From Sipunculus nudus (Eukaryota > Annelida > Sipuncula > Golfingiida > Sipunculidae): DNA of 64,000 bases. Under the pieces are notes generated by a model. That model was given only the letters and a program-made list of their open reading frames with translations, was not told where the DNA came from and did no database searches. The stretch covers positions 29,861,079 through 29,925,078 of the forward strand of contig CM049307.1 in assembly GCA_026874595.1 (NCBI GenBank), read 5' to 3'. The position numbers and the translations under genes are program-made. This document shows positions 24,865 to 61,204 of the stretch, piece after piece (within the stretch, counting starts at the first letter, position 1; each line of letters opens with the position of its first letter).

Positions 24865-25757
24865 AACTAGAATATCAGCAGAATCTGACAAAAGCCCTCA
24901 GCCAAAAGAACAGTGTTTATAGGTGGTAACAGTAACAAGTACAAAATATTTGTTCTCTCATGGATGTATATCTGTATATGTCTCAGTTATAAATTTAAAC
25001 TGTAGAGGTATGTACCATGTTTCATAACAATCCACCATATGCTTGTAGAAGATATTATGCACACAAGGCCAAAGTTGAAAAATTCGATAAAAATTCATTA
25101 AAATCAGAAATTGTAGGTAGTGCCCCCAAACTTGTGCAGCAGGTACAGACCATCAGTCCAAATGATCATAGTAAGTTTTGTGAAAATCCACCCAATGGTC
25201 TCTGAGAATTAAGCTTCTAAGGGTTTTTTTATATTCAGCTCTAAAACATAGAAAAATAGATCAAGGTCACGTACCCATCTTCGAACTTGACTGAGATATT
25301 GTCGATATAAATCTTAACTGATGAAATAAAATTCCCATGGTGAATCCTTTTAGATCTAGATATCCCGCTTACAAGGCCAAAGTTGAAAAATCTGATAAAA
25401 ATTCATTAAAAATCAGAAATTGTAGGTGGCGCCACCAAACTTGTGCAGCAGATAGAGACTATCAGTCCCAATTATCATAGTAAGTTTTGTGAAAATCCTC
25501 CCAATGGTCTCTGAGAATTAAGCTTCTAAGTGTTTTTGTATAATCAGCTCTAAAACGTAGAAAAATGGGTCAAGGTCACCCATTTTTGAACTTGACCAAG
25601 ATTTTGTTGATATACATCTTCAGCGAAGAAATAAAATTCCTATGGTGAATCCTTTTAGAGATATTCCGCTCACAAGGTAAAAGTTAACGAATGCCGGACG
25701 GACGGACAGCTTGGGTGATGACAATAGCCAATCAGCCTAAGGGCTGAGGGCTAAAAA
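24865..25757 (+). mobile_element. F5 repeat, copy a (Helentron/Helitron2-like, non-autonomous)
   Basis: The 5' end is AACTAGAATATCAGCAG. The subterminal motif AGCCCTCAGCC (24893-24903) is exactly inverted as GGCTGAGGGCT at 25742-25752, inside the 3' hairpin (TAGCCAATCAGCC / GGGCTGAGGGCTA, loop TAA), which is followed by AAAAA. The interior has two tandem units of about 308 bp (starting near 25065 and 25373) and a GGACGGACGGAC tract at 25695-25707. The palindrome GGTGGCGCCACC lies at 25425-25436. No coding capacity. Confidence 0.75.
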
Positions 25758-26300
25758 CTAAAAAATTCACTACTAGTCACTACTGGTAGTTTCTTGGAAA
25801 ATCTATTCTTTTATTAATTTCAGGAAACAGCTTGTTTTGTTAGTATTTCTGAATCTGTCCAAACATAAAGAAACATATTTCTCATAAAGTTATCAAGCAG
25901 AGTGGAATATGATGCAAATTCATTCTTTCTTCCAACATAAGATAATTAAACTGCATACACAAAAAATATAGGTGTGGAACCAATTTAACCAGACAGAATC
26001 AATCCTCAAGACAACCTCACTTTAAAAATTTATCAACAGTCAGCATATCATTGCTGAGAAAAGCAGTTTATTCATATGTGATCCATATTTTTTTGCCTGC
26101 GCATGTGCACCAGTAGTGTAGTGATAAAGTTGGCTGCCCTTAAATTTAAATCTTGAAATAAACACCACATGCCGTTTGTTCCTCATTAACCACTGGTAAT
26201 CGGGAGATCTGATATTCTTGAAAGTGATGATTCTTTTTACAATGCCATACCTTGTGTAAAGGTGTGCTTCATCTTTTAATTAAGCCTCCATAGAATATGA
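25758..26300. other. anonymous AT-rich DNA
   Basis: Contains a weak tRNA-like box A match near 26112 that I do not accept as a tRNA or SINE. Otherwise nothing seen. Confidence 0.4.
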
Positions 26301-26590
26301 GTGATGATTAAACTCAGGTTAACCATGTCCCGGCTGTTTGTCTACAGGTACTAATACAGGAAGCTGCGAGTCCTGAGAGCAGTAAGCCCCGGAAGTGTAA
26401 TTAATAGCCCAGTCTAATGGCCATTGTAAATTCATGGGGCTGGTTTAACGGGGCAGTCCTGAGTGATGCAGGACTGTTAGCCAGTCCAGTACCTGGTCAT
26501 TCAGTGCAGCTGTTGTGATATGTGTAATGACAGGCTGATTAATGAATGCTTCTGGTCAGTTACAGGACCTCCATTCTGTATACTGTGGAA
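26300..26590. promoter_or_regulatory. GC-richer island with homeodomain- and Sox-type motifs
   Basis: Contains GTAATTAATAG, GCTGATTAATGAATG, TAATGACAGG (homeodomain and Meis-type cores) and GCCATTGTAAA (inverted Sox core) within 200 bp, in a block clearly richer in G and C than its surroundings and without repeat structure or frame. This density is typical of developmental enhancers but is not proof. Confidence 0.3.
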
Positions 26591-27557
26591 CCACATAAAA
26601 CCATACTGATCAATAATACATAAGGTCATTATGTTACATTTTTTAATATTATTAATGTTAGAATAATGGATCCAGGTATAGAATATTATGTTCAGTCTTA
26701 GTTCATACCATGAAAAAAAATGAAATTGAAAATAATCATAACTGTCTTTGTTTTTTAGATATTTATAAAATGTATCTTATACATGTAACACATGAAAAAA
26801 TACCCCCCAGTAAAAACTATCAGCATGGAATAAAATATCCAAAATTTACTGTTCTCCTCAGGAAAGCGGCAGCATAACTTGTGAGTGATAATGCCAGTAT
26901 ATCAAGTATTATCTACCAGTGCTTCCTATGTATTAATGCCTGTAATGCAGGGTTCTTCATATATTTTCAATAAATTAGGTTTCCTGAATGAATGAAACCC
27001 CAAAAATATATCTGAATGCAGGCTGTGACCTGGATCGAGATGTGTTCATACAAGGTCAGAAGTTTAAGTAATTTCAAATGTATATTTGAAGATGTGTAGC
27101 AATCAAATCTTAAAGTGATATTTATATTGGCAAATACTTAGACAAAACTTCATAAAGATCAGATCAGAAATATTGTTCTAATTGATATCTGTAAACTGAT
27201 GAAATAAGGCAAGGAAGAGGGGAAATTATGCTACAGTAGTCCATGGTTCACAGTAATCAAGATCTGGAGGGGGAAAAAAAACAAATTTAACTAAATGCTC
27301 AATCAATATTTGCAGGATAATTTATTCTTTTCAAATCAACTCATTCCCACAAAAAGACGGATGATTGGAAATTCGTTTTTACCTAATAACTGGTGATTTG
27401 GGACATTTGAAGCTTGAGGTGATTTAAGAGTATCAAGTTCATGTTTTTTAACTGAAACTCTTTACAGTCATGATAAATACAAACAGTCTGAAAAATTAAG
27501 CCAAACTTTCAAATATAGCCCTAGTCATTTTTTAACTCTGCTTTGGAACCACCAATA
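26591..27557. other. anonymous AT-rich DNA
   Basis: No recognisable gene or repeat. Confidence 0.5.
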
Positions 27558-27850
27558 TCACATATGATCATTGTGGCATAAAGAGTTAAAAAGAGCAATT
27601 CTTGTCATTTCATTGCTGTTTCCGGCCGATCCAGCATGCCTGTGAGGACAGATAAGAAGGAAGCCTGTCCCTTGGTGGCTCTTGCCGTGGAGATAATTTT
27701 CTGTTATTTCTTTCATTAAATATCTGCAAGCTTCTGTCTCTGTCTTAAAATTCAGCCCACTCCCCCTGGATACAGACACAAACCACACAGCACATAAATC
27801 TGACCCAAACATTGATGCAGAAGTCAAACCAAGCTATTTTTAGCTGTTAT
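27558..27850. promoter_or_regulatory. GC-richer island with GATA and MEF2 sites
   Basis: A perfect MEF2 consensus CTATTTTTAG lies at 27834-27843 and a GACAGATAAGA GATA-type site near 27647. The block is open for 89 codons on the minus strand (27558-27827), but the translation has no recognisable domain. Either candidate regulatory DNA or an exon I cannot identify. Confidence 0.28.
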
Positions 27851-28576
27851 TGCCACTTTGGGTTTTTTACATCAAAATATTTCTGCTCCAGTTGCTGATG
27901 ATACTATATGAGAAATAAAAATTAAATATAAACATTTGAATATGCACACTTTTGAACTCTCAGTTAATGACTTTGTATTCTAATTGTTTTATTATTTCAT
28001 CAAATTAACTTTAACACAAGTTTACCAGAAGGGTAAATATTCTTAAGTAAAATTCCTTAAATATCAATAAGCTTTCCTCTGATGTTATTATTATAGAGCA
28101 GATATGTATGTACAAATATAAGCAAATAGTTTTACTTAAAGGTATCAAAACAGGTAAGCAAATGTATAATAAAAAAGAAAAAAAAATAATTTTTGGAAAG
28201 CTAACTACCAGCAGACCAGAATGTGCAAGTTAAATGGAAGAGTACTGTGGATATTGGGGATTTTTCATATGTAAAGCTCAAGAAGCTAATTGTAAGGCTT
28301 TGTTCACTTGTTAACATAAATACTTACATAAATCTTAAGTAAAAATATATCTTAGAAAAATTAGTCTAATGAGCTCTATAAACATCAGCAGTTGTGTTGT
28401 TCCATCATGTAGAAAAATGAGTATCATACAATTAAGATGCTCAAGTATTCTCCATTAAGACTATTTAACATTTATAAGAGATAACAGTGATCTTATAATA
28501 AAGGCGTAATCAATACTACACTGCAATTTATGCAATAAAAAATAAAACAAAACCAGAGATAGATTTTTTAAATTAA
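27851..28576. other. anonymous AT-rich DNA
   Basis: Nothing recognised before the F2 element. Confidence 0.5.
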
Positions 28577-31500
28577 AACAAGAGACCCAGGGGTCTAATG
28601 TTCACTCTGTGAATTACTGTGCATATTGGCAGGTAATTAAAAATAAATGTTTCAGAAAGATCAGTCCAAGAACCTCAGAGGAGACTCTGTTTTGGCAGAT
28701 TATAACAAATAAATACTTAATGACATATTATGGATAAAAGCAGAAAAGACCATTACAACCTGCTGAAAGTAGCTAAACACAGGTAGTGCAACCTGCAGGT
28801 CAACATCATTAAGCAGTCACATGATCAATATTCCTGTGAAATTTGAAACTAAAGGCTGCAGCAGTTCCTAAGTTATTTGGTAACAGAAATTACATCATGT
28901 ATGGAAACACATCAAGTTGTTTAATTTTGCAATCGACCAAATTTGAAGTTCCGTAGAGACACCATTTTGAAAAAGACTTGATTGAATTTATACTCAAATT
29001 ATTCCCCTTCCTCTAAGGAACTGCTGACTATGATTTGAAGGCCAAAATATTAATACTTTATGACATTTCTTGGAAAAAGCAGAAAAGACCATTACAGCCT
29101 GTAGAAAGTAGGTCAACACAGGTGGCGCCACCTGCAGGTCAAAATCATTCAGCAGTCATATAATTAATATTCATGTGAAATTTGAAACTGAAGGCTGCAG
29201 TAGTTCCTCCGTTATTTGGTAACAGACCATACATCATGTATAGAAACACATCAGAATGTCATATTTTGCGATCGACACGATTTGAAGTTCTGTAGAGACG
29301 CCATCTTGAAAATGACCTGACTGAATTTATACTCAAATTATTCCCCTTCCTCTAAGGAACTGCTGACTATGAATTGAAGGCCAAAATATTAATACTTTAT
29401 GACATTTCTTGGAAAAAGCAGAAAAGACCATTACAGCCTGTAGAAAGTAGGTCAACACAGGTGGTGCCACCTGCAGGTCAAAATCATTCAGCAGTCACAT
29501 GATCAATATTCATGTGAAATTTGAAACTGAAGGCTGCAGCAGTTCCTCCGATATTTGGTAACAGACAATACATCATGTATAGAAACACATCAAGTTGCCA
29601 TATTTTGCAATCGACAGAATTTGAAGTTCTGTAGAGACGCCATCTTGAAAAAGACTTGATTGAATTTATACTCAAATTATTCCCCTTCCTCTAAGGAACT
29701 GCTGACTATAAATTGAAGGCCAAAATATTAATACTTTATGACATTTCTTGGAAAAAGCAGAAAAGACCATTACAGCCTGTAGAAAGTAGGTCACCACAGG
29801 TGGTGCCACCTGCAGGTCAAAATCATTTGGCAGTCATATAATTAATATTCCTGTAAAATTTGAAACTGAAGGCTGCAGCAGTTCCTCTGATATTTTGTAA
29901 CAGACAAAACATCATGTATAGAAACACATCATGTTGTCATATTTTGCAATTGACAGAATTCGAAGTTCTGTAGAGATGCCATCTTGAAAAAGACTTGATT
30001 GAATTTATACTCAAATTATTCCCCTTCCCCTAAGGAACTGCTGACTATGAATTGAAGGCCAAAATATTAATACTTTATGACATTTCTTGGAAAAAGCAGA
30101 AAAGACCATTACAGCCTGTAGAAAGTAGGTCACCACAGGTGGCACCACCTGCAGGTCAAAATCATTTGGCAGTCATATGATTAATATTTCTGTAAAATTT
30201 GAAACTGAAGGCTGCAGCAGTTCCTCCGATATTTGGTAACAGACAATACATCATGTATAGAAACACATCAAGTTGTCATATTTTGCTATTGACAGAATTT
30301 GAAGTTCTGTAGAGATGCCATCTTGAAAAAGACTTGATTGAATTTATACTCAAATTATTCCCCTTCCTCTAAGGAACTGCTGACTATGAATTGAAGGCCA
30401 AAATATTAATACTTTATGACATTTCTTGGAAAAAGCAGAAAAGACCATTACAGCCTGTAGAAAGTAGGTCAACACAGGTGGCGCCACCTGCAGGTCAAAA
30501 TCATTTGGCAGTCATATAATTAATATTCCTGTTAAATTTGAAACTGAAGGCTGCAGCAGTTCCTCTGATATTTTGAAACAGACAAAACATCATGTATAGA
30601 AACACATCAAGTTGTCATATTTTGCAATTGACAGAATTTGAAGTTCTGTAGAGACGCCATCTTGAAAAAGACTTGATTGAATTTATACTCAAATTATTCC
30701 CCTTCCTCTAAGGAACTGCTGACTATGAATTGAAGGCCAAAATATTAATACTTTATGACATTTCTTGGAAAAAGCAGAAAAGACCATTACAGCCTGTAGA
30801 AAGTAGGTCACCACAGGTGGTGCCACCTGCAGGTCAAAATCATTTGGCAGTCATATAATTAATATTCCTGTAAAATTTGAAACTGAAGGCTGCAGTAGTT
30901 CCTCCGATATTTGGTAACAGACAATACATCATGTATAGAAACACATCAAGTTGCCATATTTTGCAATCGACAGAATTTGAAGTTCTGTAGAGATGCCATC
31001 TTGAAAAAGACTTGATTGAATTTATACTCAAATTATTCCCCTTCCTCTAAGGAAATGCTGACTATGAATTGAAGGCCAAAATATTAATACTTTATGACAT
31101 TTCTTGGAAGAAGAGGAAAAGACCATTTCATCCCGCAGAAAGAAGGTTAACACAGGTGGTGCCACCTGCAGGTCAAAATCATTTGGCAGTCATATAATTA
31201 ATATTCCTGTAAAATTTGAAACTGAAGGCTGCAGCAGTTCCTCTGATATTTTGTAACAGACAAAACATCATGTATAGAAACACATAAAGTTGTCATATTT
31301 TGCAATCGACAGAAGTTCTGTAGAGATGCCATCTTGAAAATGACCTGACTGAATTTACACACAAAGTATTCCCCTTCTTTCAAGGAACTGTTGACTATGA
31401 TTTTAAGGCCAAAATCTTAATACTTTATGACTTATCTTGGAAGAATGGGAGAAGACCATTTTGTCCCGCAGAAAGTAGGTCAACATAGGTGGCGCCACCA

Positions 31501-31660
31501 AAAGCTTATTTTTGCATGTCCAGTCCATGATCATTAATTCTGCAAAGTTTCATGAAGGTAGCTGCTGTGGCTGTTGAGATATTTGGTAACAGACGGTGGA
31601 CAGTGGACAGTTGACAGCGGACGCTGCGCCATGGCATAAGTTCACAAAGTGAACTAAAAA
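28577..31660 (+). mobile_element. F2 repeat with internal 339-bp array (Helentron/Helitron2-like, non-autonomous)
   Basis: The 5' end has a palindrome AGACCCAGGGGTCT (28583-28596), then a hairpin GTTCAC-TCT-GTGAAT (28600-28614). The 3' end carries the matching hairpin AGTTCAC-AAA-GTGAACT (31639-31655) followed by an A-run, with a GACAGTGGACAG-type stretch just upstream. Between the ends lies an eight-unit tandem array. F1 begins two bases after its end. The minus-strand frames repeated in the units are repeat shadows. Confidence 0.8.
28705..31500 (+). repeat. 339-bp tandem array, eight units, dimeric higher-order pattern
   Basis: The word ACCTGCAGGT starts at 28791, 29130, 29469, 29808, 30147, 30486, 30825 and 31164, exactly 339 bp apart every time. 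The next equivalent site at 31497 is 333 bp on, explained by a small deletion in the last unit. From 29469 onward the units alternate between two types that differ at linked sites: CTCCGATATTTGG with CAATAC, and CTCTGATATTTTG with CAAAAC. The real repeating unit there is therefore a 678-bp dimer present three times. Confidence 0.95.
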
Positions 31661-31661
31661 A

Positions 31662-34319
31662 AACAAGGGACCTATGGGTCACGGCGCTCAGCTGTTATAT
31701 ATGATAAAAAAATATGATTTAGAAATGAGGCTCATGCTGGTTTTATGTGGTAATAAAAATAAGCTGTATTATGAGTTTTTGTTGTTTAGCTTATGTATGA
31801 TTTTGAAAGTACCTTTGGAGACAGGAAAGAGGATTAATTTCATTTATTTTATTAACAAATTGATGGGATTGTCACACAGATTTTGACTTGGCCATATAAC
31901 TTATAAGCAGAACATATATTATAAAAGAGTTTAACTATTTATTAAAAAAATTACAAATATTGTCCCAAATATAATTTTTATTAAAAATAATAAGAGAATA
32001 GTATGATTTTTTCAAATAAAATATAACTGAAATGATTATTAAAATAATATTAAAGAATATATTCATGAATGCATTCATTAATACATTTTGAAAGTATCTG
32101 CACTGGTATTCATACACTTTCATTTTTACCTGAATTCCCATTCTTATGAAAGAAATTTTATAATGGAGTACATATTCATATTTGTGTTTAAATACAATTG
32201 CAAAGTATTCGCACCATGTCTGGTATTTATTCAGTTTTCACCAAACGATGTTGAGAATCCAGAATATACAAAATTCACACATTTAAATAATGATCATAAG
32301 TACCTGGTTTTATGGCTTTTATTTATATTAAAAAAAAAATGTAATATATTCATTTTGGACTAATTTCACATCAATGTACTAACTATAGACACAGTAGGAA
32401 TCTAGATAATAATATTATCAACTGCATCTTTGTCTATCATTAATTTCCTTCATATGATCCCTAATGATTAGTAATGAATAATATGATTTACTTTTTTATC
32501 ATTAAAATTGAACTGAAAAATACCATAGGTGACTGCATGGTGTTATTTGGAATACGTAAAATTCTATCCATCGATACAAGATTCTTATATCATCGGTAAC
32601 TGCAAGTTAATTTCCTGTTATTATCAACTAACAAATTCCTTTTCTATTTTTCTTTAATTTGTTATTAAAAACCAATAAAAATTTATTAATTTATTGTTTA
32701 TTGTTATGTTGTTGGTTAAAACTACTAGATGAGTTGGGTTGGACACCTGGATCAACTGTGGCTGGTCATTATATAATAAGCTGCCTGGAGCCCCAGTTTA
32801 TGCCTCGCCTCAAGCATGCATAATTTGCTGAAAGTTCAACAAGGTCAACATACAGGTGACTCAAGAGGTGCTACAGAGAGCCAAGGTCTGACATGGTCTC
32901 ATAAAAACATTAATAAAAGCTACAATTTTTGGCCAATTTCTTTCAGCTTTTTAAACTAAAAAGCTGAAATCTTTATGTGTGCATGATATGAAAATTATAT
33001 CAACAGTGCTCACAGGAAACAAACATGCCATGGTCAGAGTTGGGCAAAATTTAAGGTACTAATTTTATATTTATACTAATAACTTATAAAATTTGAAAAA
33101 TTCAGAACTAATTTTGGGTATTTAATTGAATCTTGATTAAATAATGTTACATCCCTGACAAAAAATCTCTAGCTTCAGCAATCCTCTTGTTAAGGGAGTA
33201 AATATATTTCTTGATTTTTTACAAAGTGCATTATGTTTGGGCCCATAACTTAAAACAATTACGCAAAACTGACATCATTTCTGGCATGTGCATAGAGAAT
33301 GTATCTAGAAAAATATGTATATTATATATGATTAAAGTCAGATCAGTGGTTTTGATATTAGGCAGTCTTGAAGTATAACAATGGGTTTTTAATGGAAAAA
33401 TGAAGTTTTTCATTAATATCTCGAAGGTATTAAATCCTAGTGACCAAATTCTTGGCATGGTAGGGGATTTTTGAGACATCTAATTGCATGCCAATTTTAG
33501 GAACTGAGAGCTGAAGCTGGGGAGCTGAGCACTTGCAAACTGCATGACACTAGCTTGATGTAAATAATATGTTACATGGTGCTTGAAAACTTAAATAAAA
33601 TCTACAGTTTTTGATCAACTGGTTTCAAATTTTTGTTGTTTACAGACAAAATGCTAAAAAAAAAACATGCTGTGAAAATTAAATCCACAGTCATTACAGG
33701 AAAAAAACGTGCCCTGGTCAAAGTTGGGCAAAATTTAAGGTACCAATTTTTTATTTTTGTTAATATTTTAAACAATTTAAAAGATTTTGATCTAATTTTG
33801 GGTATACAATTTAATTTTGATTAATTAAAGTTATATTACTGGAAAAAAGTTTATAGCTTTAACATATTTTGTGTTAAGTGATCAAATATCTTTCCTGATT
33901 TTTTACACAATGCATTATGTTTGGGCCCATAACTTTTTAAATTTACATAATAAAGACATAATTTCTGGCATGAACATAGGAACTATATAGAGGAATAATT
34001 ATGGTAAATACGAGGAAAAACAGATGAGTGGTTTTGATATTAGGCAGTCCTGAAGTGTAAAAATAGGTTTTTGATAAAAAATTGAGGTTTTTCCTTAATT
34101 TCTCAAAGGAACGAAGTTGCAAAGACCCAGTTTTCGGCTTGGTAGGAGATCTTGGGGACATCTAACATTATGCCAAATTTTGGATTCCTAGGTCTTACGG
34201 TTTCAAAACGTGCCACATCTACGGACGGACAGACGGATGGACGGATGGAAGGACGGACGGACGACGGACAATGGACCACGACTATAGCTCAGATGACTTA
34301 TAGTCAGCTGAGCTAAAAA
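31662..34319 (+). mobile_element. F1 repeat, copy A (2.66 kb)
   Basis: Begins AACAAGGGACCTATGGGTCA and ends with the F1 hairpin at 34285-34315 and an A-run. It is collinear and highly similar to copy B (41900-44549) over its whole length. An internal duplication of about 690 bp starts near 33000 and 33686 (common phrase CATGGTCAAAGTTGGGCAAA, with minor differences). A (GGAC/GGAT)n tract lies at about 34222-34268. It was inserted directly behind F2. Confidence 0.85.
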
Positions 34320-35104: not shown

Positions 35105-35178
35105 TATTCAAGTACATGTGTGACATGTATATGTACAATGCACTGAACATTTTGAACCCCAGTGCATGCACCAATTAC

Positions 35179-35987: not shown

Positions 35988-38588
35988 CATCACTTCTGAA
36001 ACTGGCATGGGTGCACACAACACAAAATGATTGTAGGTGTTGCCACCAGTCTTGTGTACCAGAAAGCCATCAAAGATGTATGGACATGCAAAATTTCAGG
36101 CAGATACTTTGATCTAAACCACTCTTGGGCTATGTGCACAGATGCATGAAACAATTGTAGCTGGAGCCACAAGTCTTGTATAAAATAAATCTATCAGAGA
36201 TGTATTGACATGCATATATTAGGCTAATATGTAATATCACTTCTGAGAAATTAGCAGGGACATATACTGTGCAAAAATTATTTTAGGTGGCGCCACCAGT
36301 CTTGTATACAATGAAGCTATCCAAGATGTATACATATGCCAAATTTCAGGCTGATATATCTAATCTCTTCTGAGAAATAAGCACGGACATAAACTGTGCA
36401 AAAATTATTGTAGGTGGTAGACAGTAGAGCCAGTGATTTCCTGCAATCGCGGACAAAATCGCAGAACTGACAGACCAAAATGGAATTTCAAATCCTGAAA
36501 ATATTTCAGTTTTAATGCATTTTTTGGCAAAAATATCTTGGAAATTTACTTGAAAACTTTGTGCAGTGATAAAATTGTCCGATGCCGCTGAGAGCTTGTG
36601 GTGCTCACTGATGTACACAAGATCCGAACTGGCCTAATATGTGTTTTACACAGGACTTGCCCAAGGCAGCCTGGGAACTTTGCTATGTGCCATCCAGTAG
36701 CACAATATGAAATCAAAACAAGGATGAATTTTTCACAGGGTGCCGTATTTACAGTGTAAAATGTTCACAAGTTCAGTAAATGCGGACACTGTCAGCTTGG
36801 TTGCACACTGACATACAGGGAGACTCGCACATGGTACCTCCAATACATGAAAACCAGTTACACATACTAATTTTAACTAGAATATGAGTAGTCAACAAGC
36901 AACTACGTGTATCCACCAGAATCAGAGTGGAACGGGTGAAGTGAGGCATGGATTGAGTGGCAAGGGGAAATAGAGTGAGGTGTGTTGCATATTAGCATGG
37001 ATGTCTGCAGCTGAAATGTGTATGTAGGTCACCCCAGCTACCACAAAATCCAGAAAGCTGTCCAAGCTGTATACATATGCAAAATTTAAGGCAGACAAGT
37101 CAAACCACTACATGTATATGAGTGATTTTATCCCCCAGCAGACAAACAGATGGACTTGTGCAAAAATGGTGGCAGGTGGTGCCACCAATTTTGTGTATGA
37201 TTAAGAGCTATGTGAGATCCATACACATGCAAAATTTCAGGGGGATATGTCCAACCAGTCCTGAGATATAAGCCTGAATGTCTGCAACATTAACATAAAT
37301 GTAGGTGGTGCCACCTGCCAAAAAAATCGAGAAAGCTATCCAAGATGTATAAACACGCACAATTTTAGGCATATAAATCAAACCACTACTGAGATATGAG
37401 TGATTTTAGCCCACGGCAGACAAACAAACAGACGCTGTGCAAAAATGGTTGAAAATGGTCCCTCCAGTTTTGTGTATGATAAAGAGCTGTGAGATCTAAA
37501 GACATCCAAAATTTTGGCCCAATCGGTCAAACAGTTCCCGAAATATGAGCTTGTATGTCTGCAGCTTAAACTAGAATGTAGGTGGCGCAACCTGTCATAA
37601 GATCAAGAAAGCTGTCCAGGATGTATAAACCTGCAAAATTTTAGGCAGATATGTCAAACCATCGCCAAGATATGAGTGATTTTATCCCATGGTAGACAAA
37701 CAAACGGACAATGTGCAAAAGTGGTTGCAGGTGGTGCCACCAATTTTGCGAAAAATAAAGAGCTATGTGAGATCTATAAACATCCAAAATTTTGGCCCAA
37801 TCCGTCAAAGGTTCCCGAAATATATGAGCTTGGATGTCTGCAGCGTTAACTAGAATGTAGGTGGCGCCACCTGTCATAAAATCAAGAAAGCGGTCCAGGA
37901 TGTATAAACCTGCAAAATTTTAGTCAGATTTGTCAAACAACTGCCGAGATATGAGTGATTTTGTCCCATGGCAGACAAACATACGGACGCTGTGCAAAAT
38001 GATTGCAGGTGGCGCTACCAGTTTTGCGTATGATCAAATTTTCAGGAAGATACGTCAAACCAGTCTGGAGATATAAGCATGGATGTCTGCAGCGTGAACA
38101 TGAATGTAGGTGGCACCACCTGTCACATAATCAAGAAAGCTATCCAGGATGTATATGCATGCCGAATTTCAGGTGAATCAGTCAAACCACTGCAGAGATA
38201 TGAGTGATTTTAACCCAAGGCAGATGAACAGATGGACACTGTGCAAACATAGTTGCTGGTGGCGCCACCATTTTTTGTGTAGGTTATAAAGCTATCCAAG
38301 GGCTACATTTGTACAAAAACTTTTTCCTGATCAGTCAAACGGTTCCCGAGATATATGGGTTTAAGTGTGTAAACAGACGCACAAATGGACGCTGGGCAGA
38401 GAGGAAAGGTCAGAGGTCAACGCAAATTGGTTAGGCACCAGTTCACATGTGACCCAATAATTGGTGTAAAGTTTCGGAAAAATCAGTCAAGTAGTCTCAG
38501 AGGAGTTCTCGGGAAACAAATACGGCGGCGGCGGAAACCCGGTCAAAAACATAGTATCGGCAAAACTTCGTTTTGGCGGATACAAATA
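35988..38588 (+). repeat. F6-like repeat with 279-bp tandem array and 3' hairpin
   Basis: The first part has about 128-bp spacing between GGTGNYGCCACC words (36027-36420). A unique stretch follows (36420-36990). Then units of about 279 bp start near 37170, 37450, 37727 and 38005, with a last one near 38255. The 3' end carries a hairpin at 38554-38583 (GTATCGGCAAAAC and GTTTTGGCGGATAC around TTC) followed by AAAT. The 5' boundary is uncertain; it may start directly behind the preceding F1 element. Confidence 0.6.
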
Positions 38589-39330: not shown

Positions 39331-39359
39331 TGTTCAGACCCAAGAAATGTCCAAAAAGA

Positions 39360-41474: not shown

Positions 41475-41899
41475 AACTAGATGTGTCAGAACGACACGAA
41501 TGCCCCCGCCAGAAGTAAGTTAGAAAGTATCAAATGGTCAAAAGTGTGTTAACCGGGACAAAATGTGAACTCGATCTGTAACTGGTCATTGTCTGCCCAT
41601 ACACCAAAAATCAGGCCAGTATCTGCAGGCATTGGGAAAAAAAGTCTGTACATGTTCATTTGTCATAAAAATTTCTATATTTCATATAATTTTCTATGTT
41701 CAGGAGCCATCAAACGTTCAAAAGTAATTCAATCAGGACGAAACCCAAACTAGATCTTTAACTGGTCATTATCTGCTTGCACCCCAAAAATCAGGCCAGG
41801 ATCTGCAGGCATTGCGAAAAAAGTCCATAAATGTGCATTTGTGATGAAAATTTCTATTTTTCATGAAATTTTCTATGTTCAGGAGCCGTCAAACAGTCA
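41475..41899 (+). mobile_element. F3 repeat, copy a, 5' part
   Basis: The 5' end AACTAGATGTG leads into the hairpin GTGTCAGAACGACAC (41483-41497) and the subterminal motif ATGCCCCCGCC. Two units of the F3 180-bp repeat follow (spacing 179 bp). The element is interrupted at 41899 by F1 copy B and resumes at 44550. Confidence 0.8.
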
Positions 41900-44549
41900 A
41901 ACAAGGGACCTATGGGTCACGGCGCTCAGCTGTTATATATGATAAAAAAATATGATTTAGAAATGAGGCACATGCTGGTTTTGTGAGGTAATAAGTATAA
42001 GCTGTATTATGAGTTGTTGTTGTTAAGCTTATGTATGATTTTGATAGTACCTTTGGAGACAGAGAAGAGAATTGATTTCATTTATTTTATTAACAAATGG
42101 AGTACTATTGTCACACAGATTTTGACTTGGCCATATAACTTATAAGCAGAACATATAATATAAGAGTTTAACTATTTATTTAAAAAATTACAAATATTGT
42201 CCCAGATATAATTTTTATTAAAAATAATAAGAGAATCGTATGATTTTTAAAATGAAATATAACTGAAATGATTATTAAAATAATATTAAAGAATATATTC
42301 ATGAATGCATTCATGAATACATTTGGAAAGTATTTGCACTGGTATTCATATACTTTCATTTTTTCCTGAATTCCCATTCTTTATGCAAGAAATTTTATAA
42401 TGGAGTACATATTCATATTCGTATTTAAATACAATTGCAAAGTATTCCCACCATGTCTGGTATTTATTCAGTTTTCACCAAACAATGGTGTTGAGAATCC
42501 AGAATGTACAAAATTCACACATTTAAATAATGATCATAAGTACCTGGTTTTATGGCTTTTATTTATATTAAAAAAAAAAATAAATGTGATATATTTATTT
42601 TGGACTAATTTCACATCAATGTACACACTAGACACAGTAGGAATCTAGATTAATATTATCAACTGCATCTTTGTCTATCATTAATTTCCTTCATATGATC
42701 CCTAATGATTAGTAATGAATAATATGATTTACTTTTTTATTATTAAAATTGAACTGAAAAATGCCATAGGTGACTGCATGGTGTTATTTGGAATACGTGA
42801 CATTCTATCCATCAATACAAGATTCTTATATCATCAGTAACTGCAAGTTATTTCCCTATTAATATAAACTAACAAATTCCTTTTCTATTTTTCTTTAATT
42901 TGTTATTAAAAACCAATAAAAATTGATTAATTTATTGTTATGTTGTTGGTTAAAACTACTTGATGAGTTGGGTTGGACACCTGGATCAACTGTGGCTGGC
43001 CATAAGCTGCCTTGCTGCCCCGGTATCTGCCTCGCCTCAAGCGTGCATAATTTGCTGAAAGTTCAACAAGGTCAACATACAGGTGACTCAAGAGTGGCTG
43101 GAGAGAGCCAAGGTCTGACATGGTCTCATAAAAACATTAATAAAAGCTACAATTTTTGGCCAATTTGTTTCAGCTTTCTAAACTAAAAAGCTGAAATCCT
43201 TGTGTGTGCATGATATGAAAATTATATAAACAGAGCTCACATTAAACAAAAGTGAAATGGTCAAAGTTGGGCAAAATTTAAGGTACTAATTTTATATTTA
43301 TACTAATAACTTATAAATTTTTAAAAATTCAGAACTAATTTTGGGTATTCAATTGAATCTTGATTAAATAATCTTACATCCCTGACAAAAAATCTCTAGC
43401 TTCAGCAAGCCCCTTGTTAAGGGAGTAAATATATTTCTTGATTTTTTACAAAGTGCATTATGTTTGGGCCCATAACTTAAAACAATTATGCAATACTGAC
43501 ATTTCTGGCATGTGCACAGAGAATGTATTGAAAAACATGTATATTATACATGATTAAAGTCAGATCAGTGGTTTTGATATTAGGCAGTATTGAAGTGTAA
43601 TAATGGGTTTTTAATTGAAAAATGAAGTTTTTCATTAATATCTCAAAGGTATTAAGTCCTAGTGACCAAATTCTTGGCATGGTAGGGAATTTTAGAGACA
43701 TCTAATTGTATGCCAAATTTTAGGAACTGAGAGCTTAAGCTGGGGAGCTGAGCTCTTGCAAACTGCATAACACTAGCCTGATGTAAACAATATGTTACAT
43801 GGTGCTTGAAAACTTGAATAAAATCTACAGTTTTTGATCAACTGGTTTCAAATTTTTGGTGTTAACAGACAAAATGCTAACAAAAACATGCTGAGAAAAT
43901 TAAATCCACAGTACTTACAGGAAAAAAACGTGCCATGGTCAAAGTTAGGCAAAATTTAAGGTACCAATTTTTTGTTTTTGCTAATATTTTAAAAAATTTA
44001 AAAGATTTTGATCTAATTTTGGGTATACAATTTAATTTTGATTAATTAAAGTTATATTACTTGAAAAAAAGTCCATAGCTTTAACAAGTTTTGTGTTAAG
44101 TGATCAAATATCTTTCCTGATTTTTTACAAAATGCATTATGTTCTGGCCCATAACTTTCTTAAATTATATAATACAGACATAATTTCAGGCATGTACATA
44201 GGAACTATATAGAGGAATATTTATGGTAAATATGAGGAAAAACAGATGAGTGGTTTTGATATTAGGCAGCCCTAAAGTGTGAAAATAGGTTTTTAATAAA
44301 AAATTGAGGTTTTTCCTTAATTTCTCAAAGGAACAAAGTCGCAAAGACCCAGTTTTCGGCTTGGTAGGAGATCTTGGGGACAGCTAACATTATGCCAAAT
44401 TTTGGATTCCTAAGTCTTATGGTTTCAAAACGTGCCACATCTACGGACGGACGGACGGACGGACTGACGGACGGACGGACAGACGGACGGACGACGGACA
44501 ATGGACCACGACTATAGCTCAGATGACTTATAGTCAGCTGAGCTAAAAA
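41900..44549 (+). mobile_element. F1 repeat, copy B (2.65 kb), inserted in F3
   Basis: Complete from AACAAGGGACCTATGGGTCA to the hairpin at 44515-44545 and AAAA, nearly the same length as copy A and very similar throughout, so both derive from a recently active source. A (GGAC)n tract occupies about 44442-44500. The internal duplication starts near 43235 and 43914. It splits an F3 element, which dates it as younger than that F3. No target duplication is visible. Confidence 0.88.
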
Positions 44550-44745
44550 GGTCAACCAGGACAAAACAGGAACTTGATCTGTAACTGGACATTATCTGCC
44601 AACATACAAAAAATCAGGCCAATAATTGCAGGCATTGCGAAAAAAGTCTGTACAACTGTTTGATTTTGGAATGACGGAATGACAGAATGACTGACATGGG
44701 TAAAACTATATGCCCCAGCCACTTTGTGGTGGAGGCATAAAAAAA
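44550..44745 (+). mobile_element. F3 repeat, copy a, 3' part
   Basis: Resumes with GGTCAACCAGGACAAAACAG, the expected continuation of the F3 unit. It ends in the F3 3' hairpin at 44709-44739 (arms TATGCCCCAGCCAC and GTGGTGGAGGCATA, loop TTT) and an A-run. Confidence 0.8.
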
Positions 44746-50441: not shown

Positions 50442-52337
50442 AACAAGGGACCCATGGGTCATGGCGCTCAGCTGAAGTTTGAAATTTTTGCAAATGCAAA
50501 ATATTCTATTGTAATGTTTTTCATATATACAAGCATGTGAGAAGCTAAGAGGAAAGGGGCCCTCCTACTTGGTTATAGTAAAGTTCTAAATATATGATTG
50601 CAAACTTATTCTCTGACAAGATTGTCATGAAGAAAACAGTAAAAGTTTTGAAATACTGTGAAGCATATGAAAAATTTACAGATGGACAGGCAAGTGGACA
50701 GAATGGACTAATACCTTTATTTCACTTTCAAGGTAATAATGCATTTAAGTTTATATTTTAGCCTATTTTTAGCATATCCACTTTTTCCATTAATAGTTTT
50801 TATCATATTCATTTTTTTTATTTACAAGTTTTATAAATTTGTAATATAAATTATCTGAAAATATAAGTTAAAATATCAGAATTCTAAGTTGCATTCATAA
50901 TTTACCCAGAGTGTAGCTTATATCAAGTCGTATTATGGAAACACATATATTTTATCATTTTTAAATCACAAATGTTTAAACTGAATTTAAAAGAAAATAA
51001 TGTCACAACATGGCAACTTCAAGATCATTCCTTGAATCACTATTAAAAAGTTTTGTTCATTAGAGTTTACAGTACATGCTTAATTTTATTCATCAAAATA
51101 GAAGATTCAGTAAATTTGATAAAATAAAACCATCTTTTCAAATAAAGTTTACACTCTATTATTTGAATGAGGGACAAACAAGATCATTCTGCTAATTACT
51201 ATCTCAGGTATAATTTTTTACTGGAATTATAGTCAATTTCACACCTGGTGAAGTTTTACCCTTCTGAAGTAAAGAATTACTTATCTAATGAACATCCACA
51301 CTTTCATATGGCAATAAACCACTTTGTGGACATAATTAAATGTGCACTTTAATCATTGTAACCCTGGTGGTATAATACAAAATCTAAAATGTAGCATAGC
51401 CTAGAATAAGAATGAATCAAATACAGAAAATTATAACATTCATCTAGTTTATGCACCAGGTGGGGGGGGGAGGGGAGTGCAGGGCAGAGGGGAAGTCTGC
51501 TGGTAGTTGCCAAGCTTAGCCAAGGCAAGCTGCTTGGAGAGGGTTACATAATACAAGTGAAGGCTGTACTACTAGGTGGGCCTAATGTAAACAACGCTTG
51601 ACATATGGTGTATGAAAACTTGAATTAAAGCTTCTCTTTTCAATCAATTCCTTTGAAATTTCAGATTTTAAAAGATTAAATCCTTATGTATATATGCTCT
51701 GAAAATTAAATCAACAGTGCTTACAGGGAAAAACGTGCCGTAGCCAAAGTTGGACAAAATTTAAGGTATTGATTTTTTATTTATGCTAATAACTAAGTAA
51801 ATTTGCAAAATTCAGATCTTATTTTGGGTTAACAATTGAGTCTTGATTAAAAAAAGTTATATCCTTGAAAAAAAAGTCTCCAGCTTCAGCAATTCTCATG
51901 TTAAGTGAGTAAATACATTTCCTGATTTTTTAAAAATTGCATTATATTTGGACCCATGACTTCAAATCGATACTCAATACTGACCTAATTTTTGGTATGT
52001 TAATAGAAAATGTATGGAAGAATATGAATACTACATATGATCAAACACAGACCAGTGGTTTTGATATTAGGCAGCCTTGAAGTGTAACAAGGGCTTTTTT
52101 TATGGAAAATGGAGGTTTTTCCTTAATATTTTGAAGGAACGGAGTCCTGGTGACCCAATTTTTGGTATGGTGGGAGATTTTGGGGACCTCTAACAATATG
52201 TTAAATTTTGGATTCATAAGTCCAACAGTTTCAAAACGTGCCCTGTTAACGGACGGACGGCTGGACAGACAAAGGACGAATGACGGACAAAGGACCACGA
52301 CTATAGCTCAGATAACATATAGTCAGCCTAGCTAAGA
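50442..52337 (+). mobile_element. F1 repeat, copy C (1.9 kb)
   Basis: The 5' end has the perfect palindrome GACCCATGGGTC (50449-50460) and GCTCAGCTGA (50466-50475). The 3' hairpin (52304-52334) is mutated, as is the microsatellite (52251-52290). The single internal module and the preceding GCAGGGCAGAGGGGAAG block match reverse copy D near 58060-58250, and 51290-51450 matches D near 58250-58420, so C and D form a subfamily distinct from A and B. Older than A and B judging from its ends. Confidence 0.8.
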
Positions 52338-55410: not shown

Positions 55411-56809
55411 ACTAGATGTGTCGGAACGACACGAATGCCCCCGCCTGGGGCAAATTAGAAACATTTGTAAAATTTTGAAAAATTTTTTAAGTTCAGGAGG
55501 TGTCGTATGGTCAAAAGTAGGTCAACAAGGGCAAAATGCAAACTCAATCTGTAACGGGTCATTATCAAGCAACACACCAAAAATCATGCCAGTATATGCA
55601 GGCATTGTGAAAAAAAGTCCATACATGTGCATTTTTCATAAAAATTTGTCTTTCATGAAATTTTCTATGTTCAGGATCTGTCATATGGTCAAAAATAGGT
55701 TAACTGGGACGAAACGCAAACTCGACCTGTAAGTGGTCATTATGCGCCCACAGACCAAACATTGGGCCAGTATCTGTAAGCATTGCATTGCAAAACTAGA
55801 ATATTAGCAAAAGCTGGTAATCAGTTATAAATTTAAATTGGAGAGGTATGTACCATGTTTTATAACAATCCACCAAATGCTTCCTGAGAAATATCCCCCT
55901 AAGTTTTTTTCTATACTAAGCTCTGTGACCTTAAAAAAAATAGGTCAAGACCACCCATCTTTGAACCTGACTAAGATTTTGTAAATATGATGCAAAAGCA
56001 CTGAAGTAATGAAGTTCCTTAGTTGAATACCTTTGGAGATATCCTGCACAAAGGCCAAAATTGAAAAATCCGATCAAATTTCATAAAAAAAACCAGAAAT
56101 TGCAGGTGACGCCACCAAAATTGTGCAGCACGTACAGACCATCAGTCCCAATGATCATAGTAAGTTTTGTGAAAATCCACACAATGGTTCCTGAGATATA
56201 AGCTTCTGAGTGTTTTTCTATAATCAGCTCTAAAATGTCGAAAAATGGGTCAAGGTCACCCATCTTCGAACTTGACTGAGATTTTATTGATATACATCTT
56301 CACTGATGAAATAAAATTGCAACGGTGATTCCTGCTCACAAAGTAAAAGTTAACAGACGCGGAACGGTCGGACGGACGGACGGACACCCGACAGACAGAT
56401 GGACGGACAGCTTGGGTGACAACAATAGCCCATCAGCCTATGAGCTGAGGGCTAAAAACGGCTGTACATGTACATTTGTCATGAAATTTTCTATGTTTAG
56501 GAGCCGTAAAACAATCAAAAGTAGGTCAACCGGGACGAAACACGAAATAGGACAGCTTGGGTGACAACAATAGCCCATCAGCCTATGAGCTGAGGTCTAA
56601 AAACGGCTGTACATGTACATTTGTCATGAAATTTTCTATGTTTAGGAGCCGTAAAACAATCAAAAGTAGGTCGAGTTTGCATTTTGCCCTTCTTATCCTA
56701 CTTTTGACCATACAACACCTCCTGAACTTAAAAAATTTTTACAAAATTTAACAAATGTTTCTAATTTGCCCCAGGTGGGGGCATTCGTGTCGTACCGACA
56801 CATCTAGTT
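55411..56809. mobile_element. F3 repeat, copy c, with two outward-facing 5' ends
   Basis: The left end ACTAGATGTG with hairpin GTGTCG-GAA-CGACAC (55418-55432) and CGAATGCCCCCGCC starts an F3 copy. From about 56673 to 56809 the same 5' sequence returns in reverse orientation, ending CGACACATCTAGT. The arms are roughly 135-140 bp and well matched. The normal F3 3' hairpin is missing. Inside lie F3 unit sequence, a complete F5 copy, and a 145-bp tandem duplication (56406-56550 and 56551 onward) that includes the F5 tail. Confidence 0.8.
55794..56458 (+). mobile_element. F5 repeat, copy b, inserted in F3
   Basis: Runs from AACTAGAATATTAGCAAAAG to the F5 3' hairpin (TAGCCCATCAGC and GCTGAGGGCTA) and AAAAA. 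It has one 300-bp unit where copy a has two, and a GGACGGACGGAC tract at 56370-56384. It interrupts the F3 sequence after GCATTGC and F3 resumes at about 56459. Confidence 0.78.
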
Positions 56810-57385: not shown

Positions 57386-58965
57386 TTTTTAGCTCAGCTG
57401 ACTATAAGTCATCTGAGCTATAGTCATGGTCCTTTGTCCATCGTCCGGCCGTTAACAGGGCACGTTTTAAAACCGTTGGACCTATGAATCCAAAATTCTG
57501 CATACCAATAGATGTCCCCAAAATCTCCTACCATACCAAAAATTGGGTCATTAGGACTTCGTTCCTTCGAGATATTAAGGAAAAACCTCCATTTTCCATA
57601 AAAAAGCCATTGTTACACTTCAAAGCTGCCAAATATCAAAACCACTGATCTGTTTTTAATCATATTTAGTATTCATATTTTTCCATACATTTTCTGTGCA
57701 CATACCAAAAATTAGGTTAGTATTGGGTATTATTTTGAAGTTATGGGCCCAAATATAATGCAGTTTCTTAAAAATCAGGAAATATATTTGCTCACTTAAC
57801 ATGAGAATTGCTGAGGCTGGAGACTTTTTTTTTCAGGAATATAACTTTATTTAATCGAGATTCAATTGTTTACCCAAAATTAGATCTGAATTTTGCAAAT
57901 TTTTCAAGTTATTAGCATAAATAAAAAATCAGTACCTTTAATTTTGTCCAACTTTGGCAATGGCACGTTTTTTCCCTGTAAGCACTGTTGATTTAATTTT
58001 CACAGCATATACATAAGGATTTAATCTTTTGAAATCTGAAATTTCAAAGGAATTTTTTGAAAAGAGTAGCTTTTATTCAAGTTTTCATACACCATGTCAA
58101 GTGTTGTTTACATCTGGCCCACCTAGTAATACAGTCTTCACCTGCATTATGTAACCCACCCCAGGCAGCTTGCCTTGGCTTAGCTTGGCCACTACTAGCA
58201 GGCTTCCCCTCTGCCCTGCACTCCCACCCCCACCCCAGCTGGTGCATAAACTAGATGAATGTTATAATTTTCTGTATTTTATTTTATTTTTGGCTATGCT
58301 ACATTTTAGATTTTGTATTGTACCACCAGGGTTACAATGATTAAAGTGCACATTTAATTGTGTCCACAAAGTGATGTACTGCTATGAAAGTGTGGATGTT
58401 CATCAGAGTGCTCATTAAAGATTTTAATTTGTTTGACTTATAACTCATGGTTGTATCAGTTGTTACATGATACTGGCTAAATAATCAAAATTTATATTGC
58501 TGATCCGTTATTTCAGTTCATAAAATTAAACATTCCCAACTCCAGTTTGCTCCTGGTATAATATATTGGGTGTTTTGATCCTTGGATTAATTTTAACACA
58601 TGTATTAGTTTCATAGTTGAGAATACTTTTCTTTTTTCCTGATACCATTTAAATAAATAAAAATATTCAAATTTTTCCTGTTAGTGCTGTGGATTTTCAC
58701 GGCATGTACACATTAGCATTTCATCTGTTAAAATCTGAAATTTGAAACTAATTGATCAAAAACTGTAGATTTTATTCAAGTTTCCAGGTACCAAGTCTTC
58801 ATTGTTTACATCAGGTCAGTATAAATGCAGTGTACTGGGCAGTTACATAACACCTTCAGGTCTGACCTACTGCCACTGTGAGTGTCTGGGTCAGGCTGGG
58901 TCAGGCAGTAATTACCAGAGAGCCTCTCTTTCTCTCTTTCTCTCTCTCTCTCTCTAGCAGTCCAG

Positions 58966-59032
<67 letters not shown>

Positions 59033-60240
59033 TCCTCTGCTTTTTCTCTTTCTCTCTTCATCTCTCTCTCTCTCTCTTACCCTTATTGCCTCCCTTCCTC
59101 CCTCCATCCCATTCTGTTGACAGGTACTATAAACTAGATACATTAGCTATAAATGTTGATGCAGTTTAGAAATGTGAATCAACTGAAATATTCACAATCA
59201 CATGTATGTTATGCTGTAAATTTATAGTAACATTCGTAAACCTGGATAAAAATTATGTAATGAAAAAAAGGAATAAATGCAAATATTTTTAATTTTTTAT
59301 TGGCTCAGTAGAATGGGGAAAAAAATGATTTGCTTTGTTTCTCCATCTTTCTGTCTGTTTTAAATATTTAATGTTCATGAATAAACTTTTTAAAAAAAAA
59401 AAAAGCACTGTTGAATTAAATTTCATATCCTGTATGTATATGCAAGGGTGTTGTAACTCTCACCATCCCCTTCTTAATCCCACTGAGGCTTTGCTCCTTG
59501 GCACTGTGAACAATAGTTCTACGGCTATAGCATAATAATTAAATAATTTAATAATTAAAGAAAATATCTGCAGAGAGACAGAGGCGTTGTAACTCTGATT
59601 ATAACACAACAAACCCCCCCCCCCCCCAATCAAGTCATTGCACCTGTGGAGTGGGGACGTTATGGCAACTGTATACATATCATAAAACTGATAAAAAAGG
59701 TTTACTAAATAAATTGGATCTCATCAGACAAATCTGTAAACTGTTGAACTGTCAACAGCTTATCAAAAATGTAACCAATGGAAAGGCATGGTCAGATCTC
59801 AAATATTATTTGCAACATTTTCTTCAATCATATAAACCAACCATGGCCCAAATTACCTCTTCCTCTCAATCTTTATCTACATTTCATCAAATTTTTAATA
59901 TTTTAACCTTCTAGGTGGTTCAGTAATGTTGACCATTTGTCCATAGGTACCTATGTACATGCCAGAAATAATGTCAATATTGTGTAATATGTAGATGTGA
60001 GGGTCATCAAAATAATGTACCTTGTCAAGACCGATCTTGTCAAGATACCATGTCATACAGTCACAAATTCATAAATCCCCTCATGAGCATAGTTAATCAT
60101 AACCTTGTATCTGTCAAATTGAAAGCTTGCAGTTTTCCATACACTATAGATCCTTCAACAAATAGCCTTATCATCATTATACCACTGCTTAGTATACTTT
60201 CATTGCATTCATATTTGCCCAAATAAATTGTTTTTTTCGA
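57386..60240 (-). mobile_element. F1 repeat, copy D, reverse orientation, 5'-truncated
   Basis: The 3' hairpin lies at 57390-57420 on the minus strand, preceded by TTTT on the plus strand. 57450-58070 is the conserved F1 3' module. 58060-58420 matches copy C. From about 58680 to 60240 it is the inverse of 3535-5000 of the long F1 copy, including the (TC)n stretch at about 58928-59075 and the poly-C tract at 59614-59627. It stops near a poly-C at 60241 without an F1 5' end; F3 follows. Confidence 0.75.
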
Positions 60241-60249
60241 CCCCCCCCC

Positions 60250-61204
60250 CATATTTTTCATGAAATTTTCTATGTTCAGGTGCCGTAAAACGGTCAAAAG
60301 TAGGTCAACCGGGATGAAACGCGTACTTGATCTGTAACTGGTCTATATCTGCCCACACACCAAAAATCAGGCCAATATCTGCAGCCATTGCGAAAAAAAT
60401 TCCGTACATGTGTATCTGTCATGAAATTTCATATTTTTCATGAAATTTTCTATGTTCAGGAGCCGTAAAACGGTCAAAAGAAGGTCAACCGGGATGAAAC
60501 TCGAACTAGATCTGTAACTGGTCTATATCTGCCCACACACCAAAAATCAGGCCAATATCTGCAGGCATTGCGAAAAAAAGTCCGTACATGTGTATCTGTC
60601 ATGAAATTTCATATTTTTCATGAAATTTTCTAAGGAGCCGTAAATGGTCAAAAGTAGGTCAAAGGGGAGGAAACTCGAACTCGATCTGTAACTGGTCAAT
60701 ATCTGCATACACACCAAAAATCAGGCCAATATCTGCAGGCATTGCGAAAAAAAGTCTGTACATGTGTATTTGTCATGAAAATTTCTATTTTTCATGAAAT
60801 TTTCTAAGTTAAGAAGCCGTAAAACGGTCAAACGTAAGTCAACGGGGAGGAAACGCGATCTCGATCTGTAACTGGTCAATATCTGCATACGCACCCAAAA
60901 TCAGGCCAATATCTGCAAGCATTGCGAAAAAAAGTCCGTACATGTGTATTTGTCATGAAAATTTCTATTTATCATGAAATTTTCTAAGTTAAGGAGCCGT
61001 AAAACGGTCAAAAGTAGGTCAAACGGGATGAAACGCGAACTCGATCTGTAACTGGTCATTATCTCCCCACACACCAAAAATCTGGCCAAAATCTGCAGGC
61101 ATTGCGAAAAAAAGTCTGTACAACTGTTTGATTTCGGAAGGACGGAATGATGGACATGGGTAAAACTATATGCCCCGGCCACTTTGTGGCAGGGGCATAA
61201 AAAT
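60250..61204 (+). mobile_element. F3 repeat, copy b, 180-bp array and complete 3' end
   Basis: Five units of about 180 bp: the phrase GGTCAACCGGGATGAAAC or a variant begins at 60304, 60485, 60657, 60838 and 61018. Each unit continues CTGTAACTGGTC, CACCAAAAATCAGGCCA and GCAGGCATTGCGAAAAAAAG. The 3' hairpin at 61169-61199 has arms TATGCCCCGGCCAC and GTGGCAGGGGCATA around TTT, with a single mismatch at arm position 9, followed by AAAA. The 5' end is missing; the copy starts at a 10-base C run (60241-60250) bordering F1 copy D. Confidence 0.85.

Follow-up and report, generated by a model that had tools for sequence, protein, structure and literature searches.

HINE families with a shared Helentron-type end design in Sipunculus nudus and autonomous partners for two of them

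A 64,000-nucleotide stretch of the Sipunculus nudus genome (assembly GCA_026874595.1, contig CM049307.1, positions 29,861,079 to 29,925,078 of the forward strand; hereafter the window) contains four repeat families, F1, F2, F3 and F5, whose interiors are unrelated and whose ends follow one design. The shared end type is explained by the nature of the families, which are stripped-down rolling-circle transposons of the Helentron type. All four are almost certainly HINEs, that is, non-autonomous Helentron/Helitron2 elements, copied by rolling circle through the RepHel-endonuclease proteins that Helentrons of this genome encode. The end design, the genome-wide persistence of the ends, the existence of full-length RepHel elements bearing the ends of F1 and of F3, and the use of T-runs as insertion sites were established directly, and the rolling-circle mode of copying is presumed from the class to which RepHel proteins belong. 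No autonomous partner was found for F2 and F5, and their class assignment therefore rests on architecture. An earlier note, made from the letters of the window alone, had named Helentron/Helitron2 as the class on account of asymmetric inverted repeats, hairpins and the lack of an ordinary target duplication, and this was correct. Its orientation ran opposite to the one used in print for HINEs: what it called the “3′ hairpin” is the 5′ end of a Helentron (left end, LE), and what it called the “5′ palindrome” is the 3′ end (right end, RE). In the published orientation the complete window elements all lie on the minus strand.

Read from the LE, the canonical order is a run of five Ts (T5), a hairpin with the family repeat as its 5′ arm, a GTCC-type microsatellite and a tandem array; the RE side consists of the inverse family repeat, 2-4 nt, a hairpin of 5-6 bp with a loop of 2-4 nt, a further 0-3 nt, CTAG or CTTG, and Ts. 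Five Ts precede the LE in 24 of 30 copies (two of the 24 being internal-type LEs, LE2), six do so in three, and 0, 3 or 4 in the other three; the A-run of the earlier note is this T-run, of length five in the same 24 copies, read on the opposite strand. Between one and five Ts follow the RE, three being present in 11 of 26 copies. The ends thus show the HINE features of subterminal inverted repeat (subTIR), inverted repeat (IR), microsatellite, tandem repeats and 3′ palindrome, together with the asymmetric inverted repeats, repeat-containing 5′ hairpin and 3′ hairpin after a subterminal repeat of Helentron/Helitron2. F1-type REs come in two forms, TGACCCATGGGTCA and TGGCCCATGGGCCA, in which a paired change preserves the hairpin, and the F1 and F2 REs are alike in this hairpin (the F2 consensus scores 15-20 at F1 REs). 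As had been claimed, the interiors are unrelated, BLAST between one copy each of F1, F2, F3 and F5 giving no match above 24 bp. The GAC or GGAC microsatellite reported before the LE hairpin is clear in F1 and F5 but weaker in F2 and F3.

The 3′ hairpin and CTAG terminus of F3 and F5 resemble the hairpin-CTRR end of canonical Helitrons (Helitron1), of which the families might be non-autonomous derivatives. Helitron1 elements have a 5′ TC, a hairpin only near the 3′ end and insertion between A and T; in the families described here each end has a hairpin, inverse repeats are subterminal, the LE starts with T5, targets are T-runs and not A^T, and the partners have endonuclease-like domains. A Helitron1 origin is very improbable and was rejected, since the autonomous F1 and F3 elements contradict it.

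The end motifs quoted previously are all present in the window: GCTCAGCTGA (50466-50475) and TCAGCTGAGC (34304-34313) for F1, AGCCCTCAGCC (24893-24903) and GGCTGAGGGCT (25742-25752) for F5, the F2 ends near 28579-28620 and 31629-31655, and for F3 the supposed 5′ ends (41477-41510 and 55412-55445) and 3′ hairpin (61170-61198). Sequences and positions of the F1 motifs were right, but the pair had been taken from two different F1 copies. Pairs of 50-nt ends were scored by the length of their longest inverse match and compared with 20,000 random window pairs; the exact inverse ends of F5 proved to be above chance (11 nt, P=0.002). F1 gave 9 nt in two copies (P=0.016) and 5 nt in a third (P=0.88), F2 gave 7 nt (P=0.18), and F3 gave 7 nt when its ends came from two different copies (P=0.18) and 6 nt otherwise (P=0.48). 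Only F5 and two F1 copies therefore exceed chance in the window, because the window copies are decayed, and single hairpins there are unremarkable (P 0.04-0.73). In better-preserved copies the inverse motifs persist: they are exact over 11 nt in younger or autonomous F1 copies, over 10 nt in both full F3 Helentrons (11 nt against the commonest F3 RE), over 11 nt in two complete F5 copies and over 14 nt in one F2 copy.

Collection of copies across the genome (1.43 Gb searched) showed that the RE patterns recur far above their reversed-pattern controls, each of which returned 0 matches, in all four families: 18,745 matches for F1 and 3,143 for F3 (both with at most one mismatch), 2,392 for F5 (at most three) and 389 for F2 (at most two). 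For the F5 LE the pattern matched 3,054 times, with overlapping ends counted repeatedly, against 10 in the control. Among the matches listed for the first 30 Mb of C1, a correctly oriented F5 LE lies 0.57-1.31 kb from 26 of 40 REs, mostly at about 1.02 kb, where random placement would give 0.07 pairs among the matches listed within a 1.5-kb limit. Of two generic end-grammar scans over the window and RepHel loci, the first produced chance pairings only, one of them at a true F3 RE, and the second gave one match against 0-1 in 20 Markov controls and one in the reversed sequence. Such scans were unsuitable and were replaced by alignment to read-out ends.

Which elements could drive these families? 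For F3, two related RepHel elements, on C3 and C5, are bounded by an F3 LE and an F3 RE. Their upstream alignment starts at the LE (one mismatch in 51 against the F3 LE derived from the window), their longest upstream blocks are 97-98% identical, and they share an RE with no mismatch in its last 26 bases and differ in their flanks. The C3 copy is 12,003 bp long and contains DUF6570, Helitron_like_N, PIF1 and Exo_endo_phos-like domains; PF14214 and PF05970 fall in two neighbouring open reading frames (ORFs) in different frames, with endonuclease-like pieces at the end. The Rep match of the C5 element came from the genome-wide PF14214 search, and its ends and upstream part were read. A window F3 HINE is 85% identical to the 5′ part of the C3 element over 964 columns, the 180-bp array included, and F3 HINEs thus look like deletion derivatives of the autonomous F3 Helentron. 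For the 421 bp that end in the C3 RE, 41 matches of 71-100% identity were obtained (40 of 375 candidates scored).

The PF14214 profile has 143 matches in the genome, from which 33 loci were selected non-randomly by score, open frame and variety: H1-H5 and 28 downstream flanks (20 + 8). Four open frames, 2,235-2,426 aa long, match Rep, PIF1 and endonuclease profiles; two of them also contain an OTU domain and the other two a herpes-tegument-like one. In L001-L005, PF14214 and PF05970 lie in a single ORF, so that Rep and a PIF1-type helicase are joined in one protein, and the C-terminal endonuclease domain exceeds the cut-off for PF03372 in H4 and H5 and for PF14529 in H3. H1, on C17, encodes a 2,342-aa RepHel and has two F1 LEs (940, 1664) and one F1 RE (15791-15822, four mismatches in 32). 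Its paralogs on C10, C5 and C9 are 97.5-98.5% identical over the last 1.7 kb and end at the same RE; their outer LEs have different flanks, each G-TTTTT. The inner LE (1664) is also found in these paralogs, and as the sequence upstream of it is nearly identical in all four copies it is internal. In H2, on C7, the F1 RE is exact and homology with L015 (97%) ends there; H3 has a decayed F1 LE, with no RE seen.

Thirteen of the 28 downstream flanks contain an F1-type RE in gene orientation, and the flank of L018, which is the C3 element, contains an F3 RE in gene orientation; in L020 a further F1 RE points the other way. Grouped by similarity of their endonucleases, the 28 RepHels comprise 16 of the H1 lineage, five H4-like, two F3-like (one weakly) and five without a match, and the F1 RE is found in 13 of the 16 H1-lineage flanks compared with none of the 12 others (Fisher P=1.5e-5). 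RepHels of the F1 and F3 lineages share about 31-37% identity, compared with 60% between H1 and H2, both of which have the F1 RE. F1-type REs track one RepHel lineage and F3 ends lie on another, and the earlier proposal of “one such machinery” is wrong, since these ends belong to two Helentron lineages. The autonomous Rep/helicase elements with the same ends that were to be sought exist for F1 and F3, but none was found for F2 and F5 at the 33 RepHel loci examined. Short inverted repeats close to both ends would also suit cut-and-paste miniature inverted-repeat transposable elements, as which the bivalve pearl elements were originally labelled. The repeats here are asymmetric, terminal at one end and subterminal at the other, and the partners are RepHel-encoding elements; the label is exceedingly unlikely to apply and was discarded, as the RepHel partners contradict it.

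Empty sites had been proposed as a check on insertion, and three comparisons of filled with empty sites revealed no duplication of 7-20 bp and placed the elements in T-runs; at these sites the outcome that would have refuted the earlier note did not arise. The F3 unit contains a T7 run (7,947 uninterrupted matches, with pure T7 in 78 of 100 among the matches listed), and an F1 HINE within such a unit on C2 (ends 5.3 kb apart, F3 on both sides) has T6 and T3 against T7 in the empty unit. Across F3 units, F1 LEs have five-base runs in 8 of 13 cases and six-base runs in 5 of 13, with one substitution in three of the 13; CTTG-ended elements inserted there (n=24, under a pattern demanding at least two Ts) are followed by T4 in 16, T3 in four, T5 in three and an interrupted run in one. 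The autonomous F3 element on C3 has T5 and T3, and 40 uninterrupted paralogs match its flanks, once joined, at 80-84% (the best 40 of 4,657 candidates were scored). Twenty-four of these were examined and 23 were readable, with T6 in 11, T7 in five, T5 in three, T8 in two, T3 in one and an interrupted run in one; the two T8 copies mean that a gain of zero Ts is possible at this site. The autonomous F1 element on C5 also has T5 and T3, and a single paralog, L063, matching 105 bases of the left flank and 24 of the right, bridges the site with T6. Insertion thus targets T-runs; it neither removes bases nor makes an ordinary duplication, and it adds about two Ts. Because insertion is inside T-runs, TT duplication and Ts carried by the element are indistinguishable as the source of the extra Ts, and the single T after 3 of 26 REs is mildly against obligatory TT duplication. 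This target rule, T5 at the LE and about two Ts gained, is concrete and can be checked by a nicking assay.

Insertion into T-runs, an A-run at one end and an endonuclease family shared with non-LTR elements are what retroposons resembling short or long interspersed nuclear elements would show, the A-run being their tail and the endonuclease directing them to T-runs. The A-run is short and of nearly constant length, however, the ends are common to RepHel elements, and the 7-20 bp target duplication is missing at all three sites. This explanation is scarcely credible and was abandoned, the empty-site comparisons contradicting it.

Several results weigh against the assignment to Helentron-driven HINEs. 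The PF03372 matches of H1 (E 4e-4) and of the F3 element (E 7e-5) are below the Pfam cut-off, and the C3 F3 copy, split over frames with Rep and helicase apart, is itself broken. No LE of H2 was found in the 8.7 kb upstream of its ORF; 14 of the 28 RepHel flanks have neither an F1 nor an F3 RE (the L021 piece ended about 300 bases past the endonuclease); in the OTU lineage no end was recognised in the 12.2 kb (H4) and 11.1 kb (H5) that follow the ORF; and no autonomous partner of F2 or F5 was found at the 33 RepHel loci examined of the 143. F1 REs are so common that one lying nearby proves little by itself, and the argument rests on homology ending there and on lineage. Lastly, the empty site predicted for the F1 Helentron on C10 failed: its right flank fits an F1 HINE, and its left flank is unrelated and without F1-HINE sequence.

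How might such ends work? The enzyme would nick at the element ends and copy one strand, and copying would stop once the inverse repeat of the RE pairs with the LE arm, or once the same protein reads the repeat; the family repeat would then serve as a matching address tying LE, RE and one RepHel lineage together. The F1 and F3 LE hairpins have identical geometry in unrelated sequences (7 bp, a 1x1 mismatch, 5 bp and a 3-nt loop), that of F5 has a 1-nt bulge, and that of F2 has a 7-bp stem while its inverse repeat is 14 nt long and runs across the hairpin loop. Computed DNA energies of the commonest LE hairpins are -9.6 (F1), -12.1 (F3), -11.0 (F5) and -4.5 kcal/mol (F2), and those of the duplex between LE arm and RE repeat -15.9, -18.1, -15.9 and -17.2 kcal/mol, respectively, hairpin and duplex energies being not strictly comparable. 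The hairpin and its defect are kept in 13 of 14 F1 (three of the 14 being internal-type LEs), 5 of 5 F3 and 10 of 11 F5 LE copies; the hairpin is missing from one copy each of F1 and F5, and a restored defect was seen in none of the copies examined. The LE set was chosen through an exact 5′ arm and the RE repeats were entered as consensus, so that the perfect match between LE and RE is partly selected; the imperfection of the hairpin 3′ arm is unaffected by this choice. Copies within a family are also related, and the defect of the LE hairpin, set against the perfect RE repeat, is a lead that falls short of proof.

Pairing of asymmetric terminal inverted repeats (ATIRs) that breaks the 5′ hairpin and ends replication was proposed by Bao and Jurka (PMC3627910). 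Extended to the present families, the exposed RE strand could act as a one-time switch, displacing the defect-bearing LE hairpin and so marking the end of replication. In three unrelated families the LE hairpin has one built-in defect (a mismatch at a common position in F1 and F3, a bulge in F5), whereas the RE repeat pairs perfectly with the same arm; in F2 the repeat pairs across the hairpin loop. As the sequence would be free to vary if both ends change together, each lineage could have an address code of its own, and HINEs whose code did not match would stay immobile. This proposal is tentative and, on present evidence, rather unlikely. The inverse repeats may instead be protein-binding sites only, RepHel reading double-stranded or hairpin sequence at both ends with no pairing between LE and RE. 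Protein recognition predicts that F1-type REs track the RepHel-endonuclease lineage, as they do, and agrees with the contrast between exact repeats and a less strictly kept 3′ arm of the LE hairpin; the common geometry and mismatch position of the F1 and F3 hairpins in unrelated sequences, and the 14-nt inverse repeat of F2 across its loop, are more directly explained by pairing. Binding without pairing is plausible, if somewhat short of probable.

The end architecture is already in print, for Helitron2 (PMC3627910), for Helentrons (PMC4067079) and for HINEs of the oyster (PMC7492417), with oysters, mites and flies among the hosts; what is new here is the link to partners, the bookkeeping of Ts and the LE-hairpin defect with no counterpart at the RE. 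The comparisons that follow draw on parts of each source. Cg_HINE of the Pacific oyster resembles the window HINEs in its 11-12 bp subTIR, complementary IR, GTCY microsatellite, tandem repeats and 3′ palindrome, in insertion at TT or T-rich sites without target duplication and in having several families with differing interiors; in that oyster study, of 2020, no autonomous element could be related to it, whereas F1 and F3 are linked here to RepHel Helentrons of the same genome (PMC7492417). Helentrons, DINE-1 and mite HINEs share the RepHel-endonuclease fusion, subTIRs, 3′ palindrome and T-rich targets, and HINEs are there regarded as deletion derivatives of Helentrons; the family sequences are from another genome, and the number and sharing of terminal Ts are left unclear, as opposed to the T5 at the LE and the estimated gain of about two Ts found here (PMC4067079). 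Helitron2 has 8-15 bp ATIRs, a 5′ hairpin that uses the 5′ ATIR, a 3′ ATIR just upstream of the 3′ hairpin and insertion after TTTT; the group need not carry an endonuclease domain, and the LE-hairpin defect described here goes unmentioned in the portion of that paper drawn on (PMC3627910). The bivalve pearl elements CvA, CvE and CvG, likened by description only, have a shared structure, differing sequences and central tandem repeats (Gaffney 2003, via PMC11136912, PMC7492417, PMC4067079). Helitron2-like elements of Fusarium share the architecture (PMC5148889), and subTIRs were reported in 257 of 751 Helitron-like elements of an oyster assembly (PMC7992393).

HINEs spread satellite-like arrays through mollusc and insect genomes, and drivers have been named for few of them. 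A search by title and abstract opening, with subscription papers mostly outside it, found no report of a link between a mollusc HINE and an autonomous Helentron. In S. nudus the driver is tied to its passenger by both ends in the F1 and F3 lineages, and for F3 also by the tandem array; with such pairs of parent and derivative, end recognition, the idea of an address code and the origin of dispersed arrays become testable. Both the link to partners and the accounting of Ts usefully extend what is known of this type of element. The features of the window are collected in Table 1.

Table 1. HINEs and isolated ends in the window, in published HINE orientation
Feature	Position	Strand	Details
Probable F1 HINE	3327-7875	-	RE 3327-3358; LE 7847-7875, orientations match; interior partly read; outside the range of the earlier note
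F5 HINE	24867-25752	-	RE 24867-24903 (subterminal repeat, hairpin, CTAG); LE hairpin 25726-25752
F2 HINE	28579-31655	-	RE 28579-28605; LE 31629-31655; central 339-bp tandem array 28712-31499
F1 HINE, in T-run beside F2 LE	31664-34314	-	RE 31664-31695; LE 34286-34314; ACGG microsatellite 34221-34269
F3 HINE, split by later F1 insertion	41477-44738	-	RE 41477-41510; LE 44710-44738
F1 HINE within F3	41902-44544	-	RE 41902-41933; LE 44516-44544
F1 HINE	50444-52333	-	RE 50444-50475; LE 52305-52333 (diverged)
F3 RE	55412-55445	-	followed by two 180-bp units, then F5 insertion
F5 HINE in F3 180-bp unit	55797-56453	-	RE decayed; LE 56427-56453, duplicated at 56572-56598
F1 LE, opposite orientation	57391-57419	+	LE 57391-57419
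F3 HINE without recognisable RE	60250-61198	-	180-bp array and LE 61170-61198; 85% to 5′ part of autonomous F3

Window positions 55412-56807 form a fold-back arrangement in which two oppositely oriented F3 REs enclose an F5 insertion. A T-run directly beside the LE of another family can host an element, as with F1 beside F2 (window 31656-31664); F5 lies beside an F1 LE in one T-run in L087 (near 786), and in L022 (near 1700) an element adjoins the apparent LE of a further family. Insertion of this kind leads to head-to-tail arrays.

Downstream of their ORFs, H4 and H5 have repeat arrays of more than 6 kb, with a period of about 147 bp as judged from BLAST offsets. One Helentron lineage (L003 and L004) contains a herpes-tegument-like deubiquitinase domain (PF04843) and another (L001 and L002) an OTU domain (PF02338); such domains in Helentrons are already on record in the part of the literature drawn on here (PMC9741609). 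The N-terminal part of L001 and L002 has STPR-like repeats (PF21107), just below the cut-off in L001 and further below it in L002. A palindromic box, GGTGGCGCCACC, spotted by eye, recurs across otherwise unrelated repeats, with sites at window 37300-38300, in the F2 array (28712-31499) and in the flank of the internal LE on C10, C5 and C9.

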